Assembly: GCA_030247885.1 (NCBI GenBank) | Contig: JAPDRO010000008.1 | Coordinates: 496,001 to 560,000 of the forward strand | Direction: 5' to 3' | Source: Taxawa tesnikishii (nom. ined.) | Lineage: Eukaryota > Ascomycota > Dothideomycetes > Dothideales | DNA length: 64,000 bases | In this document: piece by piece, positions 6,748 through 59,058 of the stretch | Layout of the letters: every line of letters starts with the position of its first letter | Numbering within the stretch: position 1 is the stretch's first letter | Translations under genes and position numbers: made by a program | The notes under the pieces: generated by a model | Seen by the model: the letters and a program-made list of their open reading frames with translations, nothing else | Databases searched by the model: none | What the model was told of the DNA's origin: nothing

Positions 6748-7681
6748 GGAGTATGACGGATTAAGGCATGATGGATGATGTTGAATATGGCATAGCATGG
6801 GCGTTTGGGCGTCTGGTTGGAAGCGGAAGGGCTGTTGATGTATATGTAGTTTCATGACAAGGTCGATGCAACGTGAAGGACAGTGAAACATTGCCTACCA
6901 TTCCTACATAACTCGAGAGATCAGTGTCGCAGCAACGTCATGGCGACTTTCCCGCAGTCCAGCACGAGAGCATATACTGGTTCGGATGGGCCACTCGAAT
7001 GACACGCGTTGGTAGAAAAGGCTGGGGATGGGATTGGAGTTGAGGCTTAACGGTGCCGTTTCCTGCTATCGGCCAGCGATTGGCTAGGATAACCGTTTCG
7101 TGGGCAGTGGGTCTGCAAGACTGCAGACAAGAAGAGGCTCCTCTTCTTCACCAGAAGGGAAAACGTGCGATGTGAGACAAATGCAAGCAGAAGTGGAAGC
7201 GAAGTGGTGAGATGTCCGGAATTATTGAACGCCTCGCGTTGTTCGAGGCGACAGGGCTGGAACTTCTCCAGCGTTTCATTGGTCGCGGCTTTGTTCCTGC
7301 CGGAAGCTTGGCCACTCCGCCGTACTATTTTCAGCATTGTCCTCCATCCAGCCACGGCTGCCGGAACCTTCGACTGTTTCTAATCATCATCAAACTCATT
7401 CTTACTCCCTTCTTCCACCACACCAACCTATATACACTTTCGCCTCCTTTGTTGGAATCGGGACTGCTGTACATTCACCTGGGAGGAAAATCGCATTCCT
7501 CGAGATCACACGGCAACTGGCATGACACGAAACTGACATCCTGGCCCTTCCGCTTACCTGCAGCCGCGGCGTCCATTGGCACAACAACCACCACTACTAC
7601 TGAAGACTGGCTTTTCACCTTTCGTCTCTCCCTCCCGAACAGTCGCCTTCTCCTCTTCTTTCCTAGGACCCCTATACCGCC
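6748..7681. other. Intergenic, probable DPB2 3' and CCC2 5' regions
   Basis: No gene seen. The last 300 bases are pyrimidine-rich, as in the 5' leader of the copper ATPase gene. One ACGCGT occurs near 7003 but is isolated. Confidence 0.45.
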
Positions 7682-10600
7682 ATGGCGATCTCCCTACTTC
7701 CCACGTCCGTCCAGGACGCGGACCCGCTCCTATTGTCGCCTCCTACAGCTTCTTCGAGCCAATCGCTACCGTCTGCATCATCCACACAGAGCGCACACAT
7801 GACAACAACCACATTAAAAGTTGAAGGCATGACGTGCGGAGCGTGTACCTCGGCCGTTGAAGGTGGTCTCAAAGACGTTGAGGGCGTTGGAAACGTTTCA
7901 GTCAGCCTGGTTATGGAGCGCGCAGTTGTCACACATGATGCGGAAAAAATCAGTGCTGCGCAGATCAGAGAGATTATTGAGGACAGAGGATTTGATGCAG
8001 AGGTGTTGAGTTCGGACCTACCACAGCCAGCAGTAGAAGAGGAACTCATGAGCGAAACCGAGTCGGATGAAGGGATGGAGGCACCGCCGTCCGGCGCTCT
8101 TACGACGACCACGGTCAGTATAGGCGGCATGACCTGCGGAGCCTGCACTTCGGCCGTCGAGGGTGCATTCAAGGATGTGCCAGGAATCAAGAGCTTCAGC
8201 ATATCACTGCTTGCCGAACGCGCAGTCATCGAGCACGACCCGACTTTGATCAGCGCGGAGAAGATCGCGGAGACAATAGAGGATACTGGATTCGATGCAT
8301 CGGTTTTGGACTCCAAAGTGGTATCAGTTCCCGCATCACCGAAGATCTCAAGAAGACGTCGAAGCGCTTTCGTCGTGAAACAGCTCTACTCGACAACCGT
8401 GGCTATAGAGGGCATGACTTGCGGCGCATGCACCTCTGCAGTAGAAAGTGGGTTCAAGGGCTTCCCGGAGTTGTGCAGTTCAACATCAGTCTGCTAGCAG
8501 AAAGAGCTGTAGTCTTGCACGATCCGTCGAAACTTTCTACTGCACAGATTGTTGAGATCGTCGAAGATCGCGGGTTCGATGCAACGATCTTGTCATCACA
8601 GGAGGAAGGCCTGCAGACTACCAGCGGAAGCGCCGTGGTACAGCTAAAGATTTACGGATTGAAGGATTCTGGATCCGCAGAGTCTCTGTCGTCCCTTCTG
8701 CAAGACCAAGAAGGCATAATGCAAGCCAACGTCAACTTCAGCACTTGCCGAGCAAACGTCACTTACAACTCGTCAAGAATCGGTCTTCGAGCGATTGTCC
8801 AGGCCGTTGAAAAGGCCGGCTACAACGCTCTCGTTGCGGAAAACGAAGACAACAACGCACAATTGGAGTCTCTAGCCAAGACCAAAGAGATTCAGGAATG
8901 GTCCAGAGCTTTCCGCACGTCCGTTACTTTCGCAGTTCCTGTGTTCCTTACTAGCATGCTCATTCCTATGTTCCTACCATTTCTCGATTTTGGCAGCATA
9001 AAGCTTCCTGTGATACCCGGTCTCTGGCTTGGAGACGTTGTTTGTTTACTTCTCACTATTCCTGTGCAGTTCGGCATTGGGAAGCGTTTCTACGTCTCCG
9101 CTTTCAGATCTATCCGGCACGGCAGCCCGACTATGGATGTCCTGGTTGTCCTGGGTACGAGCGCAGCATTCTTTTCAGCTGTGCCGCCATGCTTGTGAGC
9201 GTTTTGGCAGAGCCCCATTCCAGGCCTGCGACAACGTTTGATACGAGTACCATGTTGATCACCTTCATCCTCCTGGGACGCTTCTTGGAGAACAGGGCGA
9301 AAGGACAGACATCAAGAGCACTTTCCAGACTTATGAGTCTCGCTCCATTCACGGCTGTCATCTACGCTGATCCTATAGCCGCTATGAAGGCTGCTGAGGG
9401 TTGGAACTCAAGAGGTGAAATGCAAGAAAAGGCCTTGGACGAAAAGGAAGAGGTCAGCGGTGTTGCTATGGAAGAGCGCACTGTACCGACCGAGCTGCTT
9501 GAGGTCGGCGATATTGTTATCCTCAAGCCTGGCGACAAAATCCCAGCGGACGGCACCGTTACCCGTGGCGAGAGTTACGTGGACGAAAGTATGGTGACTG
9601 GAGAAGCCATGCCTATCCTGAAAAAGAAGGATTCGCTTCTCATGGCTGGAACTGTCAACGGCGCAGGTCGTGTTGATTTCAAGGTCACCAGAGCCGGACG
9701 CGATACCCAACTCAGCCAGATTGTCAGGTTGGTGCAAGAAGCGCAAACTAGCCGGGCTTCTATCCAGCGGGTGGCGGATATTGTTGCCGGCTACTTCGTA
9801 CCCATCATCATCACGCTCGGTCTAGCTACCTTTACCGCCTGGATGGTTCTCAGCCACATTCTTCCCCACCCGCCTCATGTATTCACAGACCATGCCAGCG
9901 GTGGCAAGCTCATGGTGTGCGTCAAGCTGTGCATCGCTGTCATCGTGTTTGCTTGCCCTTGCGCGCTCGGCCTGGCTACCCCCACTGCTGTCATGGTTGG
10001 AACCGGCGTGGGTGCCGAGCAAGGTATCTTGATCAAGGGTGGAGCAGCACTCGAGACAGCGACCAAGATTAGTCACGTTGTACTGGACAAGACTGGCACT
10101 CTCACCATGGGCAAAATGAGTGTTGCCAAAGCTGACATCAAGGGTGACTGGGCTTCCGATCCGTCAAAGCTGCGGATGTGGTGGACGCTCATCGGCCTTG
10201 CGGAAACGAGCAGTGAACACCCTATTGGCAAGGCCATCGTCAATGCTGCCAAGTCCCACCTCAACATGCCTGTTGACGGCCAGCTTGACGGCAACGTGGG
10301 TGATTTCGAAGCTGTCGTTGGAAAAGGTATTTCCACCTACATCGAAGCAGGCTCTTCGTCCGAACGCCAACGCTACCACGTTCTCGTTGGCAACGCATCC
10401 TTCCTTCGCTCAAAGGACATCGAAGTCCCCGCTTCCGAAGACGAGGAATACGACGCCTACTCCACGCCAACTGCGCCGAAAATCGGCGCGGCGTCTTCCT
10501 CCAAGACAGCCAACGCCGGCACAACGACCATCCACACGGCCATCTCTGGCGCATACATGGGCTCGCTCTCGCTCTCCGACACTCTCAAGCCTTCCGCTGC

Positions 10601-11300
10601 CTCTGTCGTCGCGGCGCTACACAAGATGGGCATCGCTACATCCATCGTCACCGGTGATCAACCCGCGACAGCCCACCACGTCGCCGCGCTCCTCAACATT
10701 CCTCCATCGAACGTGCACGCAGGCGTTCTCCCCTCCGGCAAGCAAGAGATCATTGAGCGTCTGCAACGCGCCGGCGAAATCGTCGCAATGGTTGGCGATG
10801 GCATCAACGACAGCCCAGCCCTCGCCGCCGCCGACGTGGGCATCTCGCTGGCCTCGGGCACCGACGTGGCCGTCGAGGCCGCCGACGTCGTCCTCATGAA
10901 GCCCAACCAGCTCATGGACATTCCCGCAAGCCTGCACCTGAGCCGCACCATCTTCAGGAGGATCAAGATGAACCTCATCTGGGCGTGCGTCTACAACGCT
11001 GTCGGCCTGCCTGTTGCGATGGGCTTCCTCTTGCCTTGGGGCATCAGCTTGCCGCCAATGGCTGCTGGTGCCGCCATGGCGTGCTCGAGTGTTACGGTCG
11101 TCGTGAGCAGTCTGTTGCTCAAGTGGTGGCGGAGACCCGGCTGGATGGCCGGCGGGGAGGAGGAAGACAAGGCCTTGACCAAGGTGGCTGAGGAGGGCTG
11201 GATGAAGAGGCTTAGGGGATTGCTGAGGAGGGAGAAGAGGAAGGACAGGGAGGGTGAGAGGGGTGCGTATGTGCCGTTGGAGAGTTACGAGGCGGTTTGA
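7682..11300 (+). CDS. Copper-transporting P1B-type ATPase (CCC2/ATP7 type)
   Basis: About 1206 residues; pumps Cu(I) into the late Golgi for loading of multicopper oxidases. Three N-terminal heavy-metal domains each carry GMTCGAC (residues about 48, 149 and 244); a fourth repeat near 320-390 has lost the CxxC. Further on come eight predicted membrane helices, the actuator motif TGEA (about 638), the CPC copper-site helix (about 757), DKTGT with the phosphorylated Asp (about 802), the SEHP motif (about 843) and GDGINDSPAL (about 1038). The frame is broken twice by apparent loss of one base: in a G-run at 8458-8460 inside the third metal domain, and in a T-run at 9172-9175 in a membrane helix. 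The protein sequence on either side overlaps without loss, so no intron fits. Probably a functional gene with base-call errors. Confidence 0.9.
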
Positions 11301-58553: not shown

Positions 58554-58640
58554 TCTCTCGTGGCGCAATTGGCTAGCGCGTTCGACTGTTATTCTCGCAA
58601 TGCGATCGAGAGGTTGGTGGTTCGAGCCCACCCGAGAGAG
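58554..58640 (+). tRNA. tRNA-Asn(GTT) with canonical 13-nt intron
   Basis: Cloverleaf: acceptor TCTCTCG/CGAGAGA, D-arm GCGC/GCGC, anticodon stem TTCGA/TCGAG, anticodon GTT at 58588-58590, T-arm GGTGG/CCACC with loop TTCGAGC, discriminator G. The intron lies at the usual 37/38 site (58592-58604). No T-run follows before the next tRNA gene, so read-through into tRNA-His is possible. Confidence 0.92.
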
Positions 58641-58696
58641 ATGAAGAAAGCGGTATCGCGCCAGCTCACTGACTTGGCCTACTATACGTTGCCACA

Positions 58697-58834
58697 GGTT
58701 ATGTGGTTAGTACCCTCTAAAGGTATCTTTCAACCAGCGCTAACAGTCCTGCAGGTGTAGGGGTAGCATGTATCGTTGTGGTCCTTTGACTAGCAACTTC
58801 CGATCCGACCCTGGTCCGATTCCAGGCATAGCCA
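58697..58834 (+). tRNA. tRNA-His(GTG), split by a spliceosomal-type insert and a canonical intron
   Basis: After removing 58706-58754 and 58782-58799 a full cloverleaf remains: acceptor GGTTATG/CATAGCC (seven pairs, one wobble), linker TG, D-arm GTGT/GCAT around AGGGGTA, anticodon stem TATCG/CGATC (one mismatch), anticodon GTG at 58778-58780, variable CGAC, T-arm CCTGG/CCAGG, discriminator A as in eukaryotic tRNA-His. The T-loop reads TCCGATT where nearly all tRNAs have TTCGATT, so position 55 is C instead of T and box B is slightly off. A four-T run at 58847-58850 could end transcription. It may be functional or recently decayed. Confidence 0.7.
58706..58754 (+). other. 49-nt spliceosomal-type intron in tRNA-His (after position 9)
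   Basis: Begins GTTAGT, has GCTAAC at 58739-58744 with the branch A about 10 nt before the end, and ends CCTGCAG. Length and signals equal those of the protein-gene introns in this window. It separates the acceptor stem from the D-arm, a place where tRNA endonuclease introns of fungi do not occur. Confidence 0.6.
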
Positions 58835-58846
58835 TAACATTTCTTC

Positions 58847-58850
58847 TTTT
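58847..58850 (+). terminator. Possible Pol III terminator of tRNA-His
   Basis: Four T in a pyrimidine-rich context 13 nt after the gene; weak by fungal standards. Confidence 0.4.
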
Positions 58851-58921
58851 GCCTTTACCTCTTGATAGAGAGAAAGGCATGGTCGCTATAGGTTTAGAGC
58901 ATGGACCCATCCAATAACAAT

Positions 58922-59049
58922 GGTCGCTTAGCTCAGTTGGTGCGTCCCACATCACAACATGCCCATTCAAACGTCCACTAATAATTTCCGCAGGTTAGAG
59001 CGTGGTGCTAATAACGCCAAGGTCGCGAGTTCGACCCTCGTAGTGACCA
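58922..59049 (+). tRNA. tRNA-Ile(AAT) split in the D-loop by a spliceosomal-type insert
   Basis: Removing 58940-58993 gives a faultless tRNA-Ile: acceptor GGTCGCT/AGTGACC, linker TA, D-arm GCTC/GAGC with loop AGTTGGTTA, anticodon stem TGGTG/CGCCA with loop CTAATAA (anticodon AAT), variable AGGTC, T-arm GCGAG/CTCGT with TTCGACC, discriminator A. Box A (TAGCTCAGTTGG) and box B are both intact in the DNA, but the distance between them grows by 54 nt. Five T follow at 59054. All invariant bases are kept, so the gene looks functional provided the insert is removed from the RNA. Standard tRNA finders would miss it or report a fragment. Confidence 0.85.
58940..58993 (+). other. 54-nt spliceosomal-type intron in the tRNA-Ile D-loop
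   Basis: Donor GTGCGT (also used by SNX4 and ROM2 introns here), branch motif CTAAT at 58978-58982 about 12 nt before the acceptor, pyrimidine-rich TTTCCGCAG end. The flanks are TTG and GTT. No similarity to the tRNA-His insert, so they are not copies of one element. Confidence 0.68.
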
Positions 59050-59053
59050 TCTC

Positions 59054-59058
59054 TTTTT
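59054..59058 (+). terminator. Pol III terminator of tRNA-Ile
   Basis: Run of five T five bases after the tRNA-Ile gene. Confidence 0.8.

Follow-up and report, generated by a model that had tools for sequence, protein, structure and literature searches.

What enzyme would remove a short, mRNA-like insert from the D-loop of a nuclear tRNA gene? In the textbook picture, nuclear tRNA introns lie at position 37/38, where a protein endonuclease cuts them out and a ligase acts with it. Spliceosomal introns are a feature of mRNA, the exceptions including U6, U3 and rRNA. The question is raised by a tRNA-Ile(AAT) gene in the window analysed here, a stretch of 64,000 nucleotides (contig C33, 496001–560000) from a fungal genome of 29.37 Mb in 34 contigs. 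Among the 120 matches listed for the SMC3 protein of this fungus, the best named ones, at 69–71% identity, come from Aureobasidium (A. pullulans, 71%), Dothideomycetes sp. NU459 (71%), Neodothiora (N. populina, 69%) and Elasticomyces, and one nameless protein is nearer at 75%. On these matches the host is most probably a Dothideomycete, possibly close to Dothideales, and an initially considered basidiomycete origin was rejected.

The tRNA-Ile(AAT) gene is composed of two exons on the + strand. Exon 1 (58922–58939) extends from the 5′ strand of the acceptor stem through G18, with box A readable in the DNA. Exon 2 (58994–59048, with discriminator A at 59049) lacks a 37/38 intron and carries box B, AGTTCGACCCT. 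Between them is a 54-nt insert of spliceosomal type (58940–58993), with the donor GTGCGT, a CAG acceptor within the end CCGCAG, and a putative branch site, CTAAT, at 58978–58982, whose A (58981) is followed by 12 nt before the exon. A run of five T residues, which reads as a Pol III-type terminator, follows at 59054–59058. The earlier note had described such an insert, its excision to a complete tRNA and the T5 run, and all three descriptions are borne out. When the exons are joined, ARAGORN folds a tRNA-Ile(aat), and the joined sequence is identical at 73/73 positions to an uninterrupted copy at C34:900017–900090 and at 71/73 to a copy at C5:234424. Bases repeat at both ends of the insert, so that by inspection the splice point can be shifted by 1–3 positions, and GT-AG is among the allowed registers.

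Five Ile(AAT) genes were found, one of which has the D-loop intron. The copies on C5 and C34 are uninterrupted, and those at C23:81150 and C33:256815 carry an anticodon-loop intron only. The earlier note would have taken many intact Ile(AAT) genes together with a silent locus as the mark of a pseudogene, a picture that holds in the part concerning other genes, two of them uninterrupted and two with the anticodon-loop intron alone. A DNA search placed the intron at a single site in the genome; diverged copies could escape this search mode, since it overlooked one known Arg copy.

The Ile gene is the last of a three-gene cluster (58554–59049, + strand; order Asn(GTT), His(GTG), Ile(AAT)), and the adjoining His gene also carries an extra insert built like a spliceosomal intron. 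tRNA-His(GTG) spans 58697–58833 on the + strand. Its first exon (58697–58705, GGTTATGTG) consists of the 5′ strand of the acceptor stem together with positions 8 and 9, and a 49-nt spliceosomal-type intron, GTTAGT...GCTAAC...CAG, is inserted between positions 9 and 10 (58706–58754). The remainder of the gene (58755–58833) contains an ordinary 18-nt anticodon-loop intron (58782–58799), and a TTTT is read downstream at 58847–58850. Without the insert, 84/88 aligned bases agree with an intact paralogue within C5:460390–460710. Of the four differences, three fall in the anticodon-loop intron; the other is T55 to C in the T-loop, which reads TCCGATT in place of TTCGATT and changes box B to GGTCCGA. 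The first gene of the cluster, tRNA-Asn(GTT) (58554–58640, + strand), has by inspection an ordinary anticodon-loop intron only. TTTT is absent within 60 nt downstream of it, and the Asn-to-His spacer (58641–58696) has no T-run. Immediately upstream of the Ile gene, 58879–58904 resembles a degenerate tRNA-Ile 5′ half with a shortened D-arm, and its alignment score was reached by 0/2000 shuffles. ARAGORN and Rfam, applied to the raw window, detected neither the interrupted His gene nor the interrupted Ile gene.

Inserts of the same design are found genome-wide, a broader pattern than the earlier note had described. Eleven inserts were identified in 9/76 nuclear tRNA gene models (Ile, His, two Ala, two Arg and three Leu), spread over six contigs (C3, C12, C29, C31, C32 and C33). 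Because of the limits of the survey, 9/76 is a sample figure and not one for the whole genome. Candidate genes were taken from Rfam tRNA matches, from the B-box patterns GGTTCGA, GGTTCAA and AGTTCGA with a TTTT nearby, and from family patterns, all of which are independent of splice signals. One B-box pattern gave 106 matches, and genes were drawn from among the matches listed. Matches with no visible T-stem or acceptor were excluded by eye (about a dozen in each of two patterns and seven in the third). Two genes came from outside the B-box survey, the His gene of the window and the C12 Arg gene, which were picked up by reading and with an anticodon pattern. ARAGORN, allowing introns up to 60 nt, returned 68 distinct models in the fetched stretches, which after removal of one wrong model (an interrupted Ala gene) left 67 uninterrupted ones; these are ARAGORN calls, and several of the anticodon names were wrong. 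On reading, five further candidate loci were judged non-tRNA. The count excludes C11:419795–420400, where a tRNA-Ser-like 3′ half has a T-run and no matching 5′ half could be recognised; this locus is either a pseudogene or a further disrupted gene.

All insert sites were placed by inspection. In the window they lie after G18 (Ile) and between positions 9 and 10 (His). The two Ala(TGC) genes (C3:912780–913080 and C32:968700–969000) are interrupted after G19. Arg(CCT) is interrupted before G18 on C29 (62770–63070), and its second copy on C12 (566050–566300) has two inserts, one before G18 and one in the T-loop. Leu(CAG) (C29:198755–199060) and Leu(CAA) (C31:666940–667240), the latter with GC-AG ends, are interrupted after position 15, and Leu(AAG) (C31:785355–785660) has one insert after position 12 and a second between the variable arm and the T-stem. 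The sites are thus 9/10, the D-arm, the variable arm and the T-loop, and not the canonical 37/38. At least seven of the nine genes (His, both Ala, the C29 Arg and the three Leu) also have the ordinary anticodon-loop intron, so that tRNA-Leu(AAG) holds two spliceosomal-type introns plus an anticodon-loop intron in one gene. ARAGORN recognised a tRNA in the spliced form of 8/9 genes, the C12 Arg being the failure. It misnamed two of these, Leu(CAA) as SeC and Leu(AAG) as Leu-taa, which were set right by inspection. In the unspliced form it called 0/9 correctly and gave one wrong Ile model.

The inserts share a spliceosomal anatomy. All eleven are 49–56 nt long, with GT-AG ends in 10/11 and GC-AG in the Leu(CAA) insert. 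A YTNAY motif is present in 11/11 (CTAAC in seven; CTAAT, CTTAT, CTGAC and TTAAC once each), with 10–13 nt on the 3′ side of its A. Donors range from GTAAGT down to the weak GTGATC and GTTACA, both in the C12 Arg gene. A filter requiring GT/GC..AG ends and a correctly spaced branch motif, with sliding of the splice point allowed, let through 0.12% of shuffled inserts, compared with 10/11 real ones; the A of the eleventh is one base too far out. A chance origin of the Ile insert is therefore unlikely, given this rate and ten further inserts of the same design in the genome. The canonical 37/38 introns that coexist in this genome, often in the same genes, differ: ten that were measured are 13–40 nt long, lie in the anticodon loop, and have GT/GC..AG ends in 0/10 and the branch motif in 1/10.

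The mRNA introns of the fungus are similar to the tRNA inserts. Three introns of SMC3, placed by a homologue, are 49, 49 and 64 nt long with donors GTACGT, GTACGT and GTAAGT. Their branch A is also 10–13 nt from the end, and two of the three match CTCAY only. Across the window, combinations of donor, branch and acceptor peak at 50–59 nt (10 versus 2.6 in shuffles, the Ile intron being counted in the 10), and the insert lengths agree with both values. TTTT is found in 0/11 introns. Pol III would need such an absence in order to read through them, but it does not discriminate, because shuffles average 2.0 with a probability of 0.08 for none and because just 2/14 mRNA-like candidates of 45–62 nt in the window contain it.

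U6 offers a precedent within the same genome. Three U6 genes score over the Rfam cut-off (C19:390845, C23:1835706 and C33:874318), a count that leaves out three weaker matches at 19–27 bits. Each has a 51–56-nt intron, GTAAGC...CTGAC/CTAAT/CTGAT...CAG, with a CTRAY branch pattern, inserted after ...CCTGCACT; the U6 3′ part follows the intron, and then a T-run. The Rfam matches stop at model position 66 of 105 because the intron splits each gene. U6 is an essential Pol III gene, and since it has the same kind of intron, the fungus should already splice Pol III transcripts. The spliceosomal reading put forward in the earlier note gains support from the ten inserts that share the anatomy of the Ile insert in eight further tRNA genes, from the three U6 introns and from the similar mRNA introns. 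Judging from the gene sequences, the inserts are very probably U2-type spliceosomal introns inserted in nuclear tRNA genes, which the spliceosome would remove from the tRNA precursor.

A T-run of 4–5 begins 2–14 nt past the acceptor in 9/9 interrupted genes. By inspection, box B is intact in 7/9, being changed in His and split in the C12 Arg, and box A is intact in the DNA of the Ile and Ala genes; in the His, Arg and Leu genes it is split. The interrupted tRNAs could instead derive from Pol II read-through transcripts with mRNA-like coupled splicing, which would be compatible with spliceosomal removal. Such transcription could account for genes whose box A is split, and because no T-run precedes tRNA-His, Asn and His are possibly one transcript and the cluster one unit. 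However, Pol III-type T-runs lie downstream of all nine interrupted genes, and introns of this kind interrupt the Pol III gene U6 in each of the three copies that were read. We regard a Pol II origin as unlikely, and the T-runs and the U6 precedent lean towards Pol III.

If the inserts are spliceosomal introns, are the genes that carry them used? The insertions may have killed them, leaving mostly silent genes with introns of genuine spliceosomal origin and the work to intact paralogues. Intact paralogues are indeed present for Ile, His and all three Leu families, and the exons of the interrupted genes are identical or nearly identical to theirs. The interrupted copies in these families therefore need not be used. 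Decay is evident in places: box B of His is changed, and the C12 Arg(CCT) copy shows poor acceptor-stem pairing and weak donors, its spliced form is rejected by ARAGORN, and a T-loop of 6 nt would remain after GT-AG splicing.

The Ala(TGC) family argues against silence. Both genes found are interrupted, at the same site. Their exons are identical at 69/71 positions, and both differences belong to a single compensatory pair of the acceptor stem, 7:66 (G7–C66 versus A7–U66). Their D-loop introns, in contrast, are identical at 36/54 positions, or 53% without the end signals, which is within the range of shuffled pairs. This contrast is the outcome that selection on a joined product would be expected to leave. 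Uninterrupted Ala(TGC) genes were found neither with a 16-nt pattern (up to two mismatches) nor with a spliced-sequence search, both of which returned as tRNA the interrupted pair only. The pattern gave 41 hits: two exact (tRNA), one with one mismatch (not tRNA) and 38 with two mismatches, of which one was read (not tRNA). The 16-mer GCGCGCCCTCTTTGCA makes up 21 occurrences among these hits, 17 of them on contig C2, and is a repeat.

Arg(CCT) gives a similar picture, with one well-formed gene, the interrupted copy on C29, plus the decayed interrupted copy on C12. An intact Arg(CCT) gene was found neither by pattern nor by DNA search; its absence is no proof, because the DNA search also overlooked the C12 copy that the pattern found. 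The pattern gave 15 hits, of which two were exact (tRNA), three had one mismatch (not tRNA) and ten two-mismatch hits were left unread. Neither Ala(TGC) nor Arg(CCT) is strictly indispensable in principle, since other anticodons may wobble-read the same codons. Together with the T-runs in 9/9 genes and the splice signals kept in 11/11 inserts, the interrupted Ala pair, with its compensatory change kept across diverged introns, and the lack of a detected intact Arg(CCT) copy make it quite unlikely that the genes are mostly silent. We consider it reasonably likely that the spliceosome is a regular and partly obligatory tRNA-maturation enzyme, which would act on Pol III precursors beside the tRNA endonuclease on the same molecule, and that the supply of tRNA-Ala(UGC) depends on it.

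Removal by the tRNA splicing endonuclease or by an ectopic cut of the bulge-helix-bulge (BHB) type, with the GT..AG ends incidental, is very improbable. Ectopic tRNA introns of this general kind exist: excerpts from PMC3978253 describe introns away from 37/38, in the D-arm too and sometimes several per gene, in Cyanidioschyzon, Crenarchaeota and the Guillardia nucleomorph. Those of Crenarchaeota and Cyanidioschyzon are linked there to a BHB or relaxed BHB, including ectopic D-arm introns in Crenarchaeota, and many of the Guillardia nucleomorph ones have no defined BHB. The GT..branch..AG anatomy is not reported for any of the three in the same excerpts, and a branch motif with GT/GC-AG ends in 11/11 inserts would be unexpected under BHB cutting. 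In a direct search, 10/11 inserts showed no strict BHB beyond shuffles and one was at 5% of shuffles; this is a weak test, in which 1/10 of the 37/38 controls was clearly detected, and it is uninformative because the controls mostly fail. Group I or II catalytic cores were not found in the window by Rfam, where the sole match over the cut-off is a tRNA, and the inserts are 49–56 nt long. An assembly artefact or chance is scarcely credible: small assembly indels may exist, since no intron could be recognised where a copper-ATPase-like frame of the window shifts, but eleven inserts of the same anatomy lie on six contigs, most of them flanked by exons that match intact paralogues.

On the reading of the inserts as spliceosomal introns, a maturation pathway can be proposed. 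The precursor, probably a Pol III product, would contain one or two spliceosomal introns and, in most cases, the anticodon-loop intron too. Recognition of the short tRNA introns by U1 and U2 would proceed as in U6 and mRNA, and the tRNA exons would be joined by the spliceosome through lariat splicing. The restored cloverleaf would then be open to RNase P, RNase Z and the tRNA endonuclease. According to PMC4090602, the Sen54 subunit of the tRNA endonuclease touches the D-arm, so spliceosomal removal may have to come before the endonuclease. We infer both this order and the identity of the polymerase.

The introns may have arisen as isolated gains, by reverse splicing or another route. The sites shared within the Ala pair and within the Arg pair suggest that some introns are older than the gene duplications, and the near-identical paralogues with and without an intron (Ile and Leu) suggest recent gains or losses. 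Introner-like elements are a known route of spliceosomal intron gain in the Dothideomycetes (PMC4457414). The inserts do not look like such elements: the DNA search, run with the Ile intron, found one genomic place, and with the end signals removed the resemblance among the eleven introns does not exceed that of the best shuffled pairs. On the same grounds, no sign of a recent burst of introners is seen.

Several known systems resemble parts of this one. mRNA-type introns occur in nuclear rRNA genes of ascomycetes, and a 1993 study cited in PMC11782384 reportedly described a messenger RNA intron in the nuclear 18S rDNA of deuteromycetes. There too an intron of mRNA type interrupts a non-coding gene that Pol II does not transcribe, but it sits in a Pol I transcript and a different host RNA. 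The introns of fungal U6 snRNA and U3 snoRNA are closer, being short GT-AG introns with an RCTRAY branch in small structured RNAs; the host here is a tRNA, which has its own intron-removal enzymes. Schizosaccharomyces pombe reportedly splices its own U6. As in the present families, U3 paralogues may differ in intron presence, and as of 2017 no small structured RNA other than U3 and U6 was known to carry introns often (both from PMC5832005).

The class of spliceosomal introns and its presence in the Pol III small-RNA gene U6 are thus already known. What appears to be new is that tRNA is the host and that two splicing systems would work on a single molecule. In the portion of the open-access PMC literature covered, no paper was found that describes nuclear tRNA genes with spliceosomal introns, and the main text of a tRNA intron review (PMC4090602) has no word starting with ‘spliceosom’. 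If the reading is true, tRNA becomes an added host class for spliceosomal introns and translation capacity is tied to the spliceosome. The system would also be a clean one for the study of intron gain, because the cloverleaf fixes the exons, interrupted and intact paralogues occur in the same genome, and there is no reading frame to interfere. Other fungi may hold overlooked cases: in the tRNAscan-SE 2.0 paper (PMC8450103), the analysis of candidates for non-canonical introns with BHB models is described for the archaeal search mode, and ARAGORN and Rfam missed the two genes of the window. Interrupted tRNA genes may be a blind spot of annotation.

Two further observations concern the window and the assembly. 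The reading frame at 7667–11300 of the window resembles a copper-transporting P-type ATPase and has two shifts; an intron was sought at both and none was found, and the shifts reflect either assembly indels or a decayed gene. Contigs C25 (80 kb), C26 (25 kb) and C28 (15 kb) hold two distinct sets of mitochondrial-looking tRNAs. One set is on C25, where several of the tRNAs occur in two or three copies arranged in mirrored order; the other is common to C26 and C28. A second mitogenome, a contaminant or an assembly artefact are possible sources of the two sets.
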